From Treponema sp. (GTDB lineage: Bacteria; Spirochaetota; Spirochaetia; Treponematales; Treponemataceae), in assembly GCA_024687165.1 (NCBI GenBank), contig JAILEY010000004.1, positions 1 to 51,512 of the forward strand: a stretch of DNA of 51,512 nucleotides. The letters are read 5' to 3'. This document shows positions 6,328 through 48,396 of the stretch, in pieces (the first letter of the stretch is position 1; each line of letters begins with the position of its first letter). The notes under the pieces were generated by a model. It saw only the letters and a program-made list of their open reading frames with translations. It ran no database searches and was not told where the DNA came from. A program made the position numbers and the translations under genes.

Positions 6328-6416
6328 AAAATTGGCGCGAAGGAGTGTTGAGCAGGACGAAAATATACTGTTCAGCATCGGTTTTGGAATGCTCAACACG
6401 ACTGGAAGCCAATTTT
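6328..6416 (+). repeat. Structured repeat, copy A (P3/P4 deleted)
   Basis: The terminal stem P1 is AAAATTGGC (6328-6336) with GCCAATTTT (6408-6416). The inner stem P2 is GTGTTGAGCA (6345-6354) with TGCTCAACAC (6390-6399), a perfect 10 bp. The core matches copy C (48235-48396, opposite strand) on both sides of a missing segment: it runs from an AAAATATACTGTT stretch directly into CAGCATCGGTTTTGG. In copy C the P3 and P4 hairpins lie between those points. The 25 bp upstream of P1 also resembles the flanks of copies B and C. It occupies much of the 325-bp space between the importer operon and the metal repressor. Confidence 0.75.
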
Positions 6417-38420: not shown

Positions 38421-38457
38421 CACTCCCAACTGCTTTATACAGTTGGGAGTGTTTATT
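38421..38457. terminator. Terminator of the surface lipoprotein gene
   Basis: CACTCCCAACTG (38421-38432) pairs perfectly with CAGTTGGGAGTG (38440-38451), followed by GTTTATTT. It lies between convergent genes and could serve both, though the T-run is better on the plus strand. Confidence 0.85.
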
Positions 38458-39314
38458 TAAGCATTTACAGAAGTTTGCTTTTGAATCTCAAGTACTTTTT
38501 CAACTGGAAGAGAAACCAGTTTTGCAATTTTTTCGATTGAGAGATTCATTTCAAGAGCATTTTTTATTGTTTCCACAGCTTTCTGTTGGGCACCGATATT
38601 TTTCCCTTCTTCCAAACCTATAGTTATTCCGGCTTCTTTTCCATTTTCATAATCATAAGTTCTTTGTCGTTCCCAATCCATATACTGCTTCTTCCACTGT
38701 GTATTTTTCTTGGCTTCTTCCGTAAGTTGCGCAAGACGTTCAGTAAACTTATTACTGGGCTTTCTTCCGATAACAAGTTCCAAAAATGCTTTCTGCTTTT
38801 CGTTTAGTATTTTATCACAGTTTTTTGCAACAAAAAAGTATTTGTATGCGCGGTCATTCAGTTTTATTAAATGGTTTTCGCGGCATAAATTTTCAAAATG
38901 ATAGCATGGTAAGCCTTTTTCAAAAATGTCTGTAATGCAGATAAAGATTACGTATGAATCTTTGAGTTCTTTATACTTCTGCCCGGATTGCAGAGTATCT
39001 ACATCTATGCATCCTTGATAATAACGCGAGCGTTCTGGAAGTTCTTTAGTATCTGCAGCCTGCATTTCCAAGTTAAATGCCTGAGTGTTGTTTTTTGCAT
39101 AAACATCAAGGCGGATTACTTTGCTTCCATAATCAGTTTCAATTGTTTCTTCTCCGTGCATTTCTATATGGTCTAATTCCATTTCCAGCAGTGTTTCAAG
39201 TAATTCCTTGCATACGTCTGGATTGTTCCGCATAACCTTATAAAAAATAAAGTTGTTGGCAAGAGTTGCTCGTTCCCATTTCTGTTCTGGTGTAAGTTTT
39301 TCTTCGTCTTTCAT
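38457..39314 (-). CDS. Rpn-family (YhgA-like) PD-(D/E)XK nuclease/transposase
   Basis: The 285-aa protein has the catalytic core of the Rpn/PDDEXK_2 family: RLDVYAKNNTQAFNLEMQAA near residue 75 gives D-x(n)-E-x-Q, followed by RSRYYQGCIDVDTLQSGQKY. The C-terminal part (about residues 215-285) is a charged, coiled-coil tail with GKEAGITIGLEEGKNIGAQQ. Rpn proteins are Mg-dependent nucleases that promote recombination and are often annotated as transposases. Many genomes have several copies. No terminal inverted repeats are seen here. Three GGATGAAA boxes, 22-23 bp apart, lie upstream on its strand. Confidence 0.86.
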   Translation of the reverse strand: MKDEEKLTPEQKWERATLANNFIFYKVMRNNPDVCKELLETLLEMELDHIEMHGEETIETDYGSKVIRLDVYAKNNTQAFNLEMQAADTKELPERSRYYQGCIDVDTLQSGQKYKELKDSYVIFICITDIFEKGLPCYHFENLCRENHLIKLNDRAYKYFFVAKNCDKILNEKQKAFLELVIGRKPSNKFTERLAQLTEEAKKNTQWKKQYMDWERQRTYDYENGKEAGITIGLEEGKNIGAQQKAVETIKNALEMNLSIEKIAKLVSLPVEKVLEIQKQTSVNA

Positions 39315-39540: not shown

Positions 39541-42500
39541 TTACTCAAACCAGACGTCTTTTACTTTTGGATATTCCTTAAGCTGATCTGCAAGTTCACT
39601 GCTGTTTGGAACTGTAAGCTGAGCATTTGCCTTAACAATGTAAGTTTTTCCTGCAACATCAAGATGAAAGAATACATGGCAGTTCCCGTTTTCACCAAAT
39701 AGAAAATCACGAAGGGGTGCAATTTCTTTTATGCTGTTGAATCCCTGTGCAAGCTGAATGTGCATCGTGGTAATCGATTTTTTCTGCAGTGTAGAAATAT
39801 CTTCTATTGAATCTACAGTGAAGCTTGGAGTTTCTCTTGGCTGTTCAACGGTGCCCATGTTGACTTTACCTTTAAATGCATATACTTCTTCATTTTTGAT
39901 TCTTGGTCCTAGCTGTTCCCAAACCTTTGGGAAGAAAGTGATTTCAATTGAATCTTTAAAATCTGCAAGTTTTGCAAATGCCATCTGGGTGCCTTTTTTT
40001 GTCATTATAACCCTGAGCCCCTGAAGCATTCCGATTGCAATATAGCTTGTGCCGCTGTTTCTCATTGACCAGGAATTTCTTCCGCTTGAAGCTGCTGATT
40101 GTAGTTCTGCAAAAGCCTGCTTTCCCTGATGAAGAATTGTTTCACTGTTGCAGGTTGCGCAGGTTTCAATAATTTTTCTGTAATCATCAAGAGGGTGCCC
40201 TGAAACAAAACATCCGATGAGCTCTTTTTCCATGTTGAGCATTTCCATTTTTGGCAGCTCTTCACATTCTTCAAATTTAAAATCCGTAAATTCTTTGATT
40301 CCTGCATCTTCAAAAAGGCTTGCCTGACCGTATGCATTTCCGCTTCTTTTTTTATCTTCGTAGGCAATAGCTGCTTCATAGTTTAAAAGAAGTGTTGCTC
40401 TGTTTTTGTCCAGATGATCAAATCCGCCTGTCTTAATGAGAACTTCAATTGCTTTTTTGTTGATGCACTGGCGCGGAGGAAGTTTATTTCCAAGCTCATC
40501 AACTCCTTCTTCCTTGAGTGCGGTACATCGTTCCACAAAATTCATGAAGCTTGTGTAAGGTCCGTTTGCTTCTCGCTCTTTAACGATTGCACTTGCGGCT
40601 CCTTCACCCATTCCCTTTATTCCTTTAAGACCGAAAACAATGTGTCCGTCTACAACATCAAAAATTTCTGCTGAACGGTTTACATCCGGTGGATCTACAG
40701 GGATTCCCATTTTTTTAGCTTCTTCAATATAAACCGGAAGAGTATCTGTTGAAGTAATTTCATTTGTTAAGTTTGCAGCCATGAACTCAGCGGCGTAGTG
40801 ACATTTGAGGTAACCTGTTCTGTAGGCAAGAACCGTGTATGCTGCTGCATGAGATTTATTGAAACCGTAGTTTGCGAACGGAATCATGATTTCAAAAATT
40901 TCGTCGGCGTGTTCTTTTGTGAATCCTTCTTTTATGGCACCTTCTTCAAATTCTGCTTTTTTACCCATGAGAACATCAAGTTTTTTCTTTCCCATGGCAC
41001 GTCGAAGCATGTCGGCACCACCGAGTGAAAATCCTGCGATTCGCTGTGAAACCTGCATGATCTGTTCCTGGTAAACCATAACGCCGTAGGTTTCTTTTAG
41101 AATTCCTTCAAGACATGGGTCAGGATATTTTACTGTGCTTGGATCATTTTTTCCGTCTACGAAAGTCTGAATGTAATCCATTGGTCCCGGGCGGTAAAGT
41201 GCGTTCATTGCAACGAGGTCAGTAATCTGTCGTGGCTGAAGTGCGCGCATCCATTTCTGCATTCCCGGAGATTCAAACTGGAAGATTGCAACTGTGTCTC
41301 CTCTCGAGAATAATTTGTAAGTTTCTTCATCTGTGTCCGGAACATTGCTTACAGAAAATTCCGGAGTTCCTTCAGGGCGGTGTTTGTTGATGATGTCTTC
41401 CGCATATCTTATGAGTGAAAGCGTCTTTAATCCCAGGTAGTCAAATTTAACAAGTCCACAAGGTTCGATGATGTCCATTGTGTACTGAACGGCAACTTCT
41501 CCTGTTTTGTTATCTTTAAAAATCGGTGCCCAGTCAGGAAGCGGAGTAAGACCGATAACCATTCCCGAAGCATGAAGTCCAGTGTTTCTGATACAACCTT
41601 CAAGTTTAAGTGCAAGCTCAAAAAGCTTTGTGTAACGCGGATCGTCTTTGTAAGGAATCAGCTGGCCGCCATCAGGGAATTTTTCGCTCGGCGGATTAAA
41701 ACAGTCTTTGAGTTTAGCTTTAGGATTGTCCGGAACACAGGCTTTAAGCATGTTTACTTCATTGAGCGGGATTTCAAGAATTCGGCCTACATCAGCAATA
41801 CAGTTCTTCGGCTTGAGTGTACCAAAAGTTACAATATGTCCTACGTTTTCCGGATGATAAAGATCCTGAGTGTGCTTGATGATATCCTGTCTGAAATCGA
41901 AATCCATATCAACGTCAAAGTCCGGCATGGAAACACGTTCAGGATTCAGAAAGCGCTCAAAAATCAGACCGAATTTAAATGGGTCAATATCTGTAATTCC
42001 CATGCAGTAAGCAACAAGAGAACCTGCACCGGAACCTCGGCCTGGACCAATAGGCATGTACGGCTTTTCTACTTTATTAACATTGTCGTAAGTGCTTTTT
42101 GACCAGTTGATGAATTCCCAAACGATAAGGAAGTAACCTGAAAATCCCATTGAGAAAATAATTCCGATTTCATATTCTGCACGTGCACGAATTTCCGCAG
42201 TTATTTCCGGGTATCTTTTTTTTAGACCTTTTTCAACAATGTAGCGCACATAATCATTCTGGTTTGCCTGATAGTCTTCGCCGTGAGTTTGAAATTCTAC
42301 AGGGAGTTCAAATCGCGGAAGTGTGCCCTTAAGTTCTGGTGTTGAATACTGATGAATCGTAAGGTCGCACATCGATGCAATTTTGAGTGTGTTGTCCATT
42401 GCTTCCTGAATGACGCTTTCATCAATTCCCGGAATTCCAACAAGAACTTTTTTCATTTCTGCTTCAGTCTTTAAATAGAATTCAGGACCTCCCATCGGTA

Positions 42501-43269
42501 CTGTATCTTTAAGAGGCTTTTTAAATCCGATTGCCTTAAGTGCATTCTGTGCTTCAGCATCTTCCTTGTTTATATAATGAACGTCGTTTGTAAGAACAAG
42601 AGGAATGTCCAGATCGTGTGCAAGCTTTACAAGTTTTGGAGCAACTTCAATCTGATCTTCAAGTCCGTGATTTTGAATTTCAATGTAGTAGCTGTCTTTA
42701 CCAAAAAGATTCTGATATTTTTTTGCAACCTCGTAAGCTTCTTCATCGCGCCCATTTAACAGAAGCTGCGGAATTTCACCGGCAATACATGCAGAACAGC
42801 AGATGAGTCCTTCGTGGTATTTTTCAAGAAGTTCAAAATCGATTCTAGGGCGTTTGTAAAATCCGTCGGTAAATGCGATTGAAGAAAGCCAGCTCATGTT
42901 TTTGTAGCCGGTCTGATTTTTGCAAAGAAGAATCAGGTGAAAGTAGTAGCCGTGTCTTCCGTTGCGTCCGTATGGAATCTGTTCGTGTTCTGTGTGTTTT
43001 CCGTATGCAATGTAAAATTCTTCACCAACAATCGGGTTGATTCCGTTTGCGTGGCAGAGATGCTCAAAGTTTAAAACGCCGAACATGTTGCCGTGGTCTG
43101 TAAGTGCGAGTGCGCTCATGTTTAATTCTTTTGCGCGGTGAACAAGGTCGTGAACTTTTGCGTGGCCGTCAAGAAGAGAATAGTCTGAGTGAACGTGGAG
43201 GTGTACGAAATTTGAAACAGGAACACCTTCATTTTCTATGTCTTTGAATTTCTCAAACCAGTCAGCCAT
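39541..43269 (-). CDS. dnaE: DNA polymerase III alpha subunit
   Basis: The 1242-aa replicative polymerase has an N-terminal PHP domain (HLHVHSDYSLLDGHAKVHDL), the palm with catalytic aspartates in MPDFDVDMDFDFRQDI near residue 455, PGRGSGAGSLVAYCMGITDI near 415, the fingers (VPDTDEETYKLFSRGDTVAI), helix-hairpin-helix (VFGLKGIKGMGEGAASAIV near 905) and a C-terminal OB fold. Length and order are those of DnaE1. GGAG precedes the ATG. It diverges from polA; the 480-bp space between holds three structured repeats, two of them oriented as dnaE, so a long dnaE leader could carry them. Confidence 0.95.
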   Translation of the reverse strand: MADWFEKFKDIENEGVPVSNFVHLHVHSDYSLLDGHAKVHDLVHRAKELNMSALALTDHGNMFGVLNFEHLCHANGINPIVGEEFYIAYGKHTEHEQIPYGRNGRHGYYFHLILLCKNQTGYKNMSWLSSIAFTDGFYKRPRIDFELLEKYHEGLICCSACIAGEIPQLLLNGRDEEAYEVAKKYQNLFGKDSYYIEIQNHGLEDQIEVAPKLVKLAHDLDIPLVLTNDVHYINKEDAEAQNALKAIGFKKPLKDTVPMGGPEFYLKTEAEMKKVLVGIPGIDESVIQEAMDNTLKIASMCDLTIHQYSTPELKGTLPRFELPVEFQTHGEDYQANQNDYVRYIVEKGLKKRYPEITAEIRARAEYEIGIIFSMGFSGYFLIVWEFINWSKSTYDNVNKVEKPYMPIGPGRGSGAGSLVAYCMGITDIDPFKFGLIFERFLNPERVSMPDFDVDMDFDFRQDIIKHTQDLYHPENVGHIVTFGTLKPKNCIADVGRILEIPLNEVNMLKACVPDNPKAKLKDCFNPPSEKFPDGGQLIPYKDDPRYTKLFELALKLEGCIRNTGLHASGMVIGLTPLPDWAPIFKDNKTGEVAVQYTMDIIEPCGLVKFDYLGLKTLSLIRYAEDIINKHRPEGTPEFSVSNVPDTDEETYKLFSRGDTVAIFQFESPGMQKWMRALQPRQITDLVAMNALYRPGPMDYIQTFVDGKNDPSTVKYPDPCLEGILKETYGVMVYQEQIMQVSQRIAGFSLGGADMLRRAMGKKKLDVLMGKKAEFEEGAIKEGFTKEHADEIFEIMIPFANYGFNKSHAAAYTVLAYRTGYLKCHYAAEFMAANLTNEITSTDTLPVYIEEAKKMGIPVDPPDVNRSAEIFDVVDGHIVFGLKGIKGMGEGAASAIVKEREANGPYTSFMNFVERCTALKEEGVDELGNKLPPRQCINKKAIEVLIKTGGFDHLDKNRATLLLNYEAAIAYEDKKRSGNAYGQASLFEDAGIKEFTDFKFEECEELPKMEMLNMEKELIGCFVSGHPLDDYRKIIETCATCNSETILHQGKQAFAELQSAASSGRNSWSMRNSGTSYIAIGMLQGLRVIMTKKGTQMAFAKLADFKDSIEITFFPKVWEQLGPRIKNEEVYAFKGKVNMGTVEQPRETPSFTVDSIEDISTLQKKSITTMHIQLAQGFNSIKEIAPLRDFLFGENGNCHVFFHLDVAGKTYIVKANAQLTVPNSSELADQLKEYPKVKDVWFE

Positions 43270-43293: not shown

Positions 43294-43433
43294 AAAAGAA
43301 AATTACTTCCGTCGTGATCCGGCTGCCCAAAACCGGGGCATAAGCCCCTTGACGCGTTATCCGGCAAGGAAACTATCATTCCGTATAACGAGTCATTTCG
43401 GTCAGCCGTCTCACTCCTCGCGTAATTTCTTTT
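43294..43433 (-). repeat. Structured repeat, copy D1 (full length)
   Basis: Terminal stem P1: AAAATTAC and AAAAG at the left (43294-43306) pair with GTAATTT and CTTTT at the right (43422-43433). P2: CGGCTG (43320-43325) with CAGCCG (43403-43408). P4: GGGGC and GCCCC around tetraloop ATAA (43335-43348). P3: CGTTATCCGG (43355-43364) with CCGTATAACG (43381-43390), one mismatch, closing a 16-nt loop CAAGGAAACTATCATT. The loop matches that of copy D2 at 14 of 16 positions although the stems differ. It lies 25 bp before the dnaE start. Confidence 0.78.
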
Positions 43434-43450
43434 TAATTTATATGAAACAT

Positions 43451-43582
43451 AAAGTTACTCCCAGTCAAAAACAATCTGACGGCACCGCTAGCTAGCGTCG
43501 CTGGACACGCAGCGCGGTAAGGAAACTATCGTTCCACGCTGCGAGTCCTGCCGCCATCTTGTTTTTCCCTTCGCGTAATTTT
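43451..43582 (-). repeat. Structured repeat, copy D2 (full length)
   Basis: P1: AAAGTTAC (43451-43458) with GTAATTTT (43575-43582), and pairing extends several bases outward (AAACAT with ATGTTTT). P2: AAAAACAA with TTGTTTTT and TGCCGTCA with TGGCGGCA (minus strand). P3: CGCAGCGCGG (43508-43517) with CCACGCTGCG (43534-43543), with a U-G pair on the minus strand, closing TAAGGAAACTATCGTT. Both D copies also keep a GAC/GTC pair and a single mismatch just below P3. P4 is CGCT-AGCT-AGCG. Confidence 0.78.
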
Positions 43583-43603
43583 ATGTTTTGTATAAAATGT
43601 ACA

Positions 43604-43628
43604 GAAAATTACGACGGGAGTAATTTTC
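43604..43628 (+). repeat. Structured repeat, copy E (solo P1 stem)
   Basis: GAAAATTAC (43604-43612) pairs perfectly with GTAATTTTC (43620-43628) around GACGGGA. The stem has the P1 sequence of D1/D2, and the loop is the remnant of the right junction motif, with the interior deleted, as in copy B. The rest of 43629-43749 is AT-rich and presumably holds the polA promoter, which I cannot place with confidence. Confidence 0.65.
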
Positions 43629-43749: not shown

Positions 43750-46557
43750 ATGAGCACAAAAGATAATACAGTTTATATTCTTGATTCTTACGGTCTGATT
43801 TACAGAGCTTATTTTGCACTTATGAATCATCCTTTAACAAATGCAGCGGGTGATAATATCAGTGCCGTCGTGATTTTTTTTAATAATTTAAAGGCACTTC
43901 TTGATAAATATAAAGTCGGCTATATTGCAGCGGCTTTTGATTCACGTACAAAAACCTTCAGACATGATCTTTATCCTGAATACAAAGCAAATCGTGCAAA
44001 GACTCCAGAAGATCTTCATGCTCAGGTTCCGGTGATTGAAGAAATTTTAAATGCACTTAATGTTCCTGTTTTAAGGTGCGACGGTTTTGAGGCTGATGAT
44101 ATAATCGCTCTTGTTGCAAAAAAATGTGCTGAAGAAAAAAGACCGTGCAGAATTTTAAGCGGAGACAAAGATCTTCTTCAGCTTGTTACAGAAAATTGTA
44201 AGGAAATGCAGCCGGATAAAACAAGCGGCGGATGGGAAACTGTAGGAATTGAAGAAGTAAACGCAAAGTGGGGAATCGGGCCTGAAAAAATTCTGGACTA
44301 TCTTTCACTTGTTGGTGACACTGCTGATAATGTTCCGGGCGTAAAAGGCGTCGGTGAAAAAACTGCACTTAAGCTTCTTGGAGAATACGGATGCCTTGAC
44401 GGGATTTATGAACATGCTGCGGAAATCAAAGGTGCTCTTGGAGAAAAAATCCGCGGTGATAAAGACAATGCATATTTTTCAAAAAAGCTGATTGAATTGT
44501 GCACTGATCTTCCTGTTGAAATCAATTTTGAAGATTTTACAACTGATAACCTTGATTATAAAAAGGCTGCAGAAAAACTTGATTATTACGGCGCAAAGAA
44601 AACTTCAAAAGCTTATGCTTCAATGGGCAGTGCAAAATCGGACGGAAATACAGAAGTTGCAAGTGCAGAAAATTCTGATACAACTGAAGCAGAATCCGAA
44701 GAATCTGAAAATTCAATAATACAGGTTATGCAGAACAAGGGCAGTTATAAAGCCGTAACAAAACTTTCGGATCTTGAAAATTTTGTAAATGAAATTCTTG
44801 CGGATGAAAAAAAAGTATTTGCTTTTGACACGGAGACAACCGGGCTCAACACTCATTCAGACGATCTTGTGGGTTTCAGCTTGTGCCACAAAAAAGGAGA
44901 GGGAATTTATGTTCCTGTGATCCTTGCAGGCGGAATGTTTGCACCTGAAACTATAAGCAAAAAAGACTGCCTTGTTCAGCTTGAACGTCTTTTCCAGAAT
45001 GAAGAATTAACTGCTGTTTTACACAATGCAAAATTTGATCTTGAAATTTTATATTCAAACGGAATGAATAAAAAAGCAAAATGTAAAATCTTTGATACTA
45101 TGATTGCTGCCTGGCTCTTAAATCCTGGTGAAAACGGGAAATCACCTTTTGCCCTTGAAACTCTTGGAGAAAAACTTCTTGGGCTTAAAGGAATTGAGTT
45201 TAAAGATCTTGTTCAAAAAGGGCAGACATTTATTGATGTTCCTCTTGAAAAAGCTGCAGATTATGGAGCAGAAGATTCTGATTTTACTTACCAGCTTTAT
45301 GAAATTCTTTCTGTTAAAATAGTAGAAAAAAAACTCGGCGATCTTTTTTACAACATGGAAATGAAGGTTCTTCCGATTCTTGTTGATATGGAACGTGAAG
45401 GAATTTATCTTGATGTTTTGACTTTAAACGAATTCAGTCTTGAACTTAAAAAGCTTATCGATGAAAAAGAAGCTGAGATTTATAAAGAAGCAGGACATGA
45501 ATTTAATATTTCTTCTCCAAAGCAGTTGCAGACAGTTCTTTTTGAAGAGCGCGGATTGCCTCACGGGAAAAAAACAAAGACCGGCTACAGCACAGATGAA
45601 AGTGTTCTTGAAGAACTTGCTCAGACCACTTTTGACACACTGCCTGCACTGATTCTTGAGTACCGCTCATATGCAAAGCTTTTCAGCACATACGTTGAGG
45701 CTCTTCCAAAACTCTGTGACAAAAATTCAAAGATTCATACTTCATTCATGCAGACTGGAACTGCAACAGGAAGACTTTCAAGTAAAGACCCGAACCTGCA
45801 GAATATTCCAATCCGCGATGAAAATGGCAGAAGAATTCGAAGTGCATTTAAAGCTGCAAATGGAAATGTTTTGATTTCTGCGGATTATGCTCAGATTGAA
45901 CTTGTTGTACTTGCCCATCTTAGTGGTGACAAAAATTTAAGTCAGTCCTTTATTGACGGAATCGATGTTCATAAATCTACAGCGGCTCTTATTTACAATA
46001 TAAAGGCAGAAGATGTAACAGCACAGCAGCGTAGATTTGCAAAAACTGTAAACTTCGGCGTTATGTACGGAATGAGTGCTTTCCGACTTGCAAAGGATCT
46101 TGATATCAGCAGAACGGAAGCAAAGAATTTTATTGATAAATATTTTGAAACTTATGCTGATGTTAAACGCTTCCTTGATCAGACAATTGTTGATGCAAAA
46201 GCAAACGGTTATGTTGAAACTGTAACAGGCCGCAGAAGATATATTCCTGAAATAAAAAATTCAAACAAGCTGATTCAGCAGGGTGCAGAAAGAGTTGCAG
46301 TAAATACTCCGATTCAGGGAACTGCCGCAGATATAGTAAAAACTGCAATGATAAAAGTTGTGTCAAAACTTGCAGAAGAAAAAATAAATGCAAAACTTCT
46401 TCTTCAGGTGCACGATGAATTGATTTTTGAATGTTCTGAAAATGAAGCGGAAAAAGCTGTTGAAATAATCCGCAGTGAAATGGAAGGTGCATTTAAATTA
46501 AATGTGCCGCTGAGAGTAAGCATTGAAAGCGGAAAAAGCTGGGGAGAATTCCACTAG
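43750..46557 (+). CDS. polA: DNA polymerase I
   Basis: This 935-aa enzyme repairs gaps and removes RNA primers. The 5'-3' exonuclease domain covers about residues 1-290 (SYGLIYRAYFALMNH, GFEADDIIAL, LVGDTADNVPGVKGVGEKTA). An intact 3'-5' proofreading domain follows (FAFDTETTGLNTHSDD near 358). Polymerase motifs are A (SADYAQIELVVLAHLSG near 715; V where E. coli has R), B (RRFAKTVNFGVMYG near 760) and C (LLQVHDELIFEC near 885). Its stop overlaps the GTG start of coaE (TAGTG). Confidence 0.95.
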   Translation: MSTKDNTVYILDSYGLIYRAYFALMNHPLTNAAGDNISAVVIFFNNLKALLDKYKVGYIAAAFDSRTKTFRHDLYPEYKANRAKTPEDLHAQVPVIEEILNALNVPVLRCDGFEADDIIALVAKKCAEEKRPCRILSGDKDLLQLVTENCKEMQPDKTSGGWETVGIEEVNAKWGIGPEKILDYLSLVGDTADNVPGVKGVGEKTALKLLGEYGCLDGIYEHAAEIKGALGEKIRGDKDNAYFSKKLIELCTDLPVEINFEDFTTDNLDYKKAAEKLDYYGAKKTSKAYASMGSAKSDGNTEVASAENSDTTEAESEESENSIIQVMQNKGSYKAVTKLSDLENFVNEILADEKKVFAFDTETTGLNTHSDDLVGFSLCHKKGEGIYVPVILAGGMFAPETISKKDCLVQLERLFQNEELTAVLHNAKFDLEILYSNGMNKKAKCKIFDTMIAAWLLNPGENGKSPFALETLGEKLLGLKGIEFKDLVQKGQTFIDVPLEKAADYGAEDSDFTYQLYEILSVKIVEKKLGDLFYNMEMKVLPILVDMEREGIYLDVLTLNEFSLELKKLIDEKEAEIYKEAGHEFNISSPKQLQTVLFEERGLPHGKKTKTGYSTDESVLEELAQTTFDTLPALILEYRSYAKLFSTYVEALPKLCDKNSKIHTSFMQTGTATGRLSSKDPNLQNIPIRDENGRRIRSAFKAANGNVLISADYAQIELVVLAHLSGDKNLSQSFIDGIDVHKSTAALIYNIKAEDVTAQQRRFAKTVNFGVMYGMSAFRLAKDLDISRTEAKNFIDKYFETYADVKRFLDQTIVDAKANGYVETVTGRRRYIPEIKNSNKLIQQGAERVAVNTPIQGTAADIVKTAMIKVVSKLAEEKINAKLLLQVHDELIFECSENEAEKAVEIIRSEMEGAFKLNVPLRVSIESGKSWGEFH

Positions 46558-48234: not shown

Positions 48235-48396
48235 TAATAAAATTGGCTTCCAGTCGCGTTGAGCAGTCCAAAACCGATGCTGTACAGCATCTATATGCTG
48301 TTTGTTGCAAAGTAACTATTAATTATGTCGCTATTGCGACTGCAAAAAACAGAATATTTTCGTCCTGCTCCACACTTCTTCGCGCCAATTTTATTA
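48235..48396 (-). repeat. Structured repeat, copy C (full length, perfect 13-bp terminal repeats)
   Basis: TAATAAAATTGGC (48235-48247) and GCCAATTTTATTA (48384-48396) form a perfect 13-bp P1. P4 is CAGCAT-CTAT-ATGCTG (48285-48300). P3 is CTGTTTGTTGCA (48298-48309) with TGCAAAAAACAG (48341-48352); its loop holds AAAGTAACTATTAATT, a match to the D1/D2 loop, and a side hairpin GTCGC-TATT-GCGAC (48327-48340). On the minus strand its termini match copy A closely. With the adjacent terminator it fills the 359-bp gap. Confidence 0.78.

Follow-up and report, generated by a model that had tools for sequence, protein, structure and literature searches.

Repeats in the dnaE-polA spacer of a Treponema belong to a family of branched, probably mobile DNA palindromes

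The two repeats that lie between dnaE and polA in this Treponema, D1 and D2, are probably copies of a structured, MITE-like, non-autonomous mobile palindromic DNA element with a putative mobiliser acting in trans. They belong to a family of folding repeats, apparently undescribed, that is found between genes in about half of the sampled animal-gut Treponema species. An earlier note on this DNA had offered three options for the pair: an undescribed small RNA, a cis-regulator in a dnaE leader or an ssDNA-folding mobile element. The last fits best, given the dispersed copies, the differences in presence and orientation between genomes and the lack of G-U enrichment, while the small RNA and the dnaE leader are less favoured.

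A branched fold and its distribution

The window, the whole stretch of 51,512 nucleotides that was analysed, contains D1 and D2 where the earlier note had placed them, both as full copies of one fold and, in the orientation of the family model, both on the plus strand. Three further copies had been missed, at 43604-43628, 48239-48392 and 6328-6416. The features that bear on the argument are as follows.

6328..6416, minus strand: degraded copy, P3/P4 interior lost (38.5 bits, E 1.9e-8)
38457..39314, minus strand: Rpn family recombination-promoting nuclease/putative transposase, downstream of dnaE (TIGR01784, PF12784)
39541..43269, minus strand: dnaE, upstream neighbour, outside the element (NF004226, 1217 bits)
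43298..43430, plus strand: D1, full unit P1/P2/P4/P3, subtype with the GGGGCATAAGCCCC P4 hairpin (106 bits, model R1; ssDNA z -6.3)
43363..43382, plus strand: conserved P3 tip of D1, GGCAAGGAAACTATCATTCC (invariant or near-invariant columns, alignments A1 and A2)
43450..43583, plus strand: D2, full unit, subtype with ACCGCTAGCTAGCGTCGCT (137 bits, model R1)
43516..43535, plus strand: conserved P3 tip of D2, GGTAAGGAAACTATCGTTCC (invariant or near-invariant columns, alignments A1 and A2)
43604..43628, minus strand: collapsed third unit, of which just the two P1 ends remain, AAAATTACTCCCGTCGTAATTTT (16.6 bits over model positions 1-136)
43750..46557, plus strand: polA, downstream neighbour, outside the element (NF004397, 1039 bits)
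48239..48392, plus strand: additional copy, of the subtype whose P3 tip bears an extra hairpin (53.3 bits, E 1.3e-12)

Each unit spans 136-155 nt and consists of an outer stem, P1, and a long stem, P2, leading to a three-way junction with hairpins P4 and P3. P1 pairs AAAnTTAC with GTAAnTTT and varies in sequence with its complementarity kept, and P2 is fully variable in sequence. In the internal loop between them, YCC-R-GTC stands opposite TTCCCTCnCG. P4 is ACCGCTAGCTAGCGTCGCT in D2-type copies and GGGGCATAAGCCCC in D1-type copies, while P3 has a variable stem and a conserved tip, on which a third subtype bears an additional hairpin. The conserved unpaired motifs are YCC-R-GTC in the internal loop, ACCGCTAGCTAGCGTCGCT around P4 and GGAAACTATC at the P3 tip.

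The fold of P1, P2, P3 and P4 that had been proposed from D1 and D2, with compensating stems and conserved loops, holds for the family to which they belong. The conserved P3 loop lies in a block, CGGYAAGGAAACTATCRTTCC, that is identical between D1 and D2 at 19 of 21 positions, and the GAC/GTC match described below P3 is present. The names given to the neighbouring genes are also correct by profile matches to dnaE and polA. Since these genes are divergent, the repeats lie upstream of both. As ssDNA, D1 has a folding energy of -30.5 kcal/mol, whereas 200 shuffles average -14.0 and none of them equals it; for the minus strand of the full 356-nt spacer block, z is -10.1. D2 is 88% identical to the copy at G000:C36. 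The collapsed unit and the start of D1 make up the inverted repeat I2, and next to D2 the collapsed unit gives the appearance of the usual convergent doublet; a comparable remnant is found in G034, where G207 holds a full unit.

How widespread is the family? A covariance model built from 17 sequences (eight copies of this genome plus copies from relatives) found 40 copies in this genome and 57, 31, 25, 23, 13 and 10 in six relatives, in each case among the first 150 candidates scored per genome. The search of the genus that the earlier note had proposed gave matches in 103 of 200 Treponema genomes, with no more than 16 candidates scored per genome. In a phylum sample of 393 genomes, matches were confined to this genus and two more genera of the same family. 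The exact 18-base core motif has at least 118 matches in named genomes, and those listed are all assigned to Treponema, Treponemataceae, Spirochaetaceae or Spirochaetia, mostly as MAGs from horses, cattle and other animals. A phage origin was considered and set aside, as the exact core motif gave no match in IMG/VR. No Rfam family matched the units at its gathering threshold, with several subtypes tried; at permissive thresholds the best match was TD-1, at 21 bits against a threshold of 64.5. The portions available of papers on MITEs, REPs and stem-loop repeats (PMC10969869, PMC3733652, PMC1590033, PMC3116915) contain no description of this family, which is weak evidence because coverage of subscription journals is thin. 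In the available part of a survey of microbiome RNAs, Treponema candidates are mentioned only upstream of ribosomal protein genes (PMC8040213).

Covariation of the stems and the scarcity of wobble pairs

The compensatory changes seen between D1 and D2 extend across the family, as 41 of 42 pairs show them in an alignment of 126 distinct copies, in which 92.8% of paired cells are standard. Doubly changed cells number 1300 in this alignment, compared with 390 after shuffling and 225-284 in slid registers, and the covariation score is 0.586, compared with 0.167 for shuffles and 0.09-0.11 for slid registers. Because this alignment was fitted to the model, it leans towards structure; alignments made with MAFFT only give the same answer, with 17 of 28 pairs doubly changed among the eight copies of this genome and 27 of 42 among 17 copies. 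The earlier note had named a large alignment without covariation as grounds for giving up the fold, and the large alignment does show covariation.

Where selection maintains an RNA fold, G-U pairs are usually plentiful on the transcribed strand and A-C pairs rare. The stems of the units, with 4868 cells, contain 70 G.T (1.4%), 114 A.C (2.3%) and 236 other mismatches, and the core helices, with 4266 cells, contain 44 G.T and 97 A.C. The control, 27 distinct tRNAs of the same loci, has 46 G.T among 579 paired cells (7.9%); its zero count of A.C is not informative, since the tRNA tool marks accepted pairs only. Neither strand of the units reaches the wobble level of RNA, and G-U does not stand well above A.C in the covarying stems. 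Watson-Crick pairing without an excess of G-U implies that constraint or correction acts on DNA. The wobble counts are thus our main evidence that pairing is maintained at the DNA level, whether because a folded single strand or a cruciform is selected for, because one arm is corrected from the other, or for both reasons. The modest excess of A.C would fit a weak contribution from minus-strand RNA or a few misaligned columns.

NEMIS, ERIC and comparable intergenic repeats have been proposed to work as RNA folds, and the units could likewise be a structured RNA made from the minus strand (a 3′-UTR element, an mRNA stabiliser, a terminator-like element or a small RNA) that has spread by duplication. 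We regard this as unlikely. The strong covariation is consistent with it, as are the A.C count in the core helices (A.C being G-U on the minus strand), the co-direction of the minus strand with genes in tandem contexts (43 to 20), the short distance from unit to stop codon (median 45 nt) and the 97-99% conservation of some orthologous units. Against it, minus-strand G-U amounts to just 2.3% of cells when tRNAs of the same loci have 7.9%, 50 of 146 copies lie in divergent spacers, sister species hold both orientations at the same spacer, and even permissive Rfam thresholds gave no match. The earlier suggestion that the minus strand would be favoured if the repeats are RNA keeps weak backing, from the A.C count and gene co-direction.

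Placement, mobility and the search for a mobiliser

The reading that we prefer, a mobile DNA element, also draws on where the copies lie. They are short, non-coding, numerous, dispersed and mainly intergenic, and the genes around them are ordinary housekeeping genes. Only 14 of 183 non-redundant units overlap an ORF of at least 100 aa, and several of these are probably chance ORFs. The 146 clearly intergenic units are distributed over 50 divergent, 33 convergent and 63 tandem spacers, compared with 90, 100 and 433, respectively, for spacers without units. Because the copies adjoin unrelated genes in all three spacer types, the proposal of a leader or cis-regulator specific to dnaE is unsupported.

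Orthologous spacers of sister species differ in whether they hold a unit. At one spacer (A1), G207 has a full unit, G034 a collapsed remnant and G107, G135, G191, G084, G180 and G190 none; at a second, the unit is missing in G180 and G135. Units also differ in orientation at orthologous spacers (L214/L033, L102/L080, L120/L185, L110/L071 and three G207 sites), with the units 94% alike once turned in L214/L033 and 91-95% alike in L120/L185. Compared base by base, four such pairs have immediate flanks too diverged to tell inversion in place from loss and re-insertion. No clean target-site duplication was found at five spacers compared with sister genomes, since these species are about 75-97% alike and their spacers turn over.

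Orthologous units in the same orientation are often more alike than the coding sequences that flank them, which may reflect constraint, local exchange or re-insertion. Two pairs, L136 5442-5593 with L165 5904-6055 and L092 3273-3423 with L143 6366-6516, have units 99% identical and coding flanks 84% and about 87% identical, respectively (83-89% across both pairs). Such identity is odd for an unconstrained mobile element, and the units may have a host function.

Neighbouring units within 400 bp of each other are arranged convergently in 8 cases, in tandem in 10 and divergently in none, with a convergent spacer of 40-41 nt in the pair from G162 and G029. Of the 25 units of G070, a single contig (L215, L216, G070:C1:25000-56000), 17 are no more than about 60 kb from position 0 and frequently form near-tandem pairs; this clustering is not general, as it is not seen in other near-complete genomes, G060 and G222.

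The units themselves lie inside site-specific inverted repeats. Complementarity between the two flanks is 63% at the first outer base, compared with 33% in mismatched controls, is still about 40% at bases 10-18 and fades over about 20 nt. Runs of at least seven complementary bases, with one mismatch allowed, occur at 12.4% of units and 0.6% of controls. This pattern would arise if the element preferred to insert at palindromes, for instance terminator hairpins, or else if copying had extended its arms. Outer inverted repeats 10-60 nt beyond the unit are common to the copies of one genome and differ between genomes, with arms CAGGGCTTCCGCATTATAAAC in L113 and L124, GGTCCGCGCGGGAAGACGC in L215 and GAATATCCCCTCACGGACA in L140, L148 and L086. 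Since copies within G070 and within G154 have outer arms in common, some of the arm can belong to the element itself.

These flanks bear on another explanation, that covariation is a by-product of re-templating of quasi-palindrome arms, through template switching or hairpin repair, with no selection for the fold. Perfect arms could come from hairpin-templated repair, and the nearly pure Watson-Crick pairing, the extension of complementarity into site-specific flanks and the collapsed units that keep only their outer arms would all fit. We nonetheless consider this explanation quite improbable, as simple arm correction explains neither the family-wide conservation of the unpaired motifs and of the asymmetric three-way junction nor how the units came to occupy tens of dispersed sites.

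If the units are mobile DNA, what moves them? The search turned up neither an autonomous copy nor a transposase bearing these ends, and no parent element appeared in the roughly 1.7 Mb of loci or beside the RAYT genes checked; the inverted ends (P1) covary between species. A composite transposon was also discounted, as the genes between unit pairs spaced about 3 kb from each other in this genome are ordinary.

Two groups of proteins were weighed as partners. RAYT (REP-associated tyrosine transposase) genes are typically flanked by REPs, and the units might be REPIN-like elements moved by the RAYTs of the genus. RAYT-like Y1 transposases of about 250 aa are indeed encoded in many unit-rich genomes (G162, G065, G157, G079, G161, G158, G159, G160, G010, G031 and G200), with matches to the NCBI RAYT model (58.7 and 48 bits) that fall short of its cut-off of 80, and the convergent doublets recall REPINs. 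However, a model search of the surroundings (about 3 kb) of some 28 RAYT genes found units near only one, about 3 kb away, so that no copy flanks any of these RAYT genes. This genome, with its 40 units, has a weak sub-threshold fragment of 22 bits as its RAYT match; the genomes with a match do not include G029, G154, G155, G156 and G108; and the units are 136-155 nt long, not 20-40, with no constant GTAG or CGTC tag. We therefore rejected these transposases as partner, and think it very unlikely that they move the units. The RAYT-like Y1 family itself (L233-L260; G161, G158, G159, G162 and others) is present in about two dozen Treponema genomes and is longer than the 146-position NCBI RAYT model.

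Less probable still is mobilisation by Rpn/PD-(D/E)XK putative transposases of the TIGR01784 family, which got its first name in T. denticola. One such gene lies in the window at 38457-39314, two in L340 each have a unit about 9 nt past the stop codon and one in L182 has a unit 52 nt past its stop. The remaining four full-length Rpn genes in the loci examined, that of the window included, have no adjacent unit, and nearly all units are without an Rpn neighbour. As three adjacencies among seven genes are not unusual in loci chosen for containing units, the Rpn nucleases were rejected as partner as well.

A putative mode of movement and comparison with known systems

How might a mobile DNA element of this form work? 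Its working form would be a folded DNA single strand, or a cruciform. An enzyme supplied in trans might bind the conserved unpaired motifs of the folded strand, with GGAAACTATC and CTAGCTAG as candidate protein contacts, and insert the element, presumably with a preference for palindromic spots in spacers. The mobile forms may include single units, tandem units and convergent doublets. It is possible, although we hold this only tentatively, that the units represent a new kind of mobile element, one that a putative enzyme recognises and moves as a branched ssDNA fold, that inserts at palindromic spots and switches orientation, and whose stems are free to change while their pairing is kept.

The family offers an unusually clean natural case in which base-pair covariation appears to act on DNA and not on RNA. 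It follows that covariation alone is no proof of a structured RNA. The ratio of G-U to A-C provides a simple test that separates DNA-level from RNA-level pairing. The mobiliser, if found, could be a new recombinase specific for folded DNA. Since the repeats occupy many promoter and terminator spacers, here that of dnaE and polA, they could also alter the expression of neighbouring genes.

Among known systems, integron attC sites are recombination sites recognised as a folded DNA strand, and they are similar to the units in length. Unlike attC sites, the units occur in both orientations beside housekeeping genes. Their aligned ends, by inspection, do not have the GTTRRRY/RYYYAAC (R′/R″) core boxes, and there are no cassette arrays, so an integron origin was dismissed. 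Terminal hairpins of the parvovirus type are T-shaped palindromes that occur in both orientations and have two small hairpins inside an outer stem; they are an analogy only and not a relative, as the units are internal chromosomal repeats with no linked replication protein or virus genome.

REPs and REPINs share with the units the character of extragenic DNA hairpins, inverted doublets and many copies, and Y1 transposases are present in the genus. REPs are described as 20-40 bp long with a GTAG or CGTC tag (PMC3733652), whereas the motif of the units that comes nearest to such a tag is YCC-R-GTC, which yields CGTC in D1-type copies only, and the units differ further in their greater length and in not flanking RAYT genes. 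The palindromic elements of Rickettsia (RPEs) are, like the units, palindromic repeats of about 100-150 bp with no known mobiliser. A notable trait of RPEs is that they insert in frame within genes (PMC10969869), and the units differ in being mostly intergenic.

MITEs also differ from the units in several respects. The units have no constant terminal inverted repeat, as P1 covaries between species; their interior branches at a three-way junction and has conserved loops; and neither a parent insertion sequence nor a clear target duplication was found in the loci examined. A review of such elements reports that the Correia element inverts, and that RUP, BOX and SPRITE cluster and insert into one another (PMC10969869). 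Like the MITEs known as Correia/NEMIS, ERIC, RUP and BOX, the units are short, non-coding and hairpin-forming, lie mainly in spacers and are present in tens to hundreds of copies.
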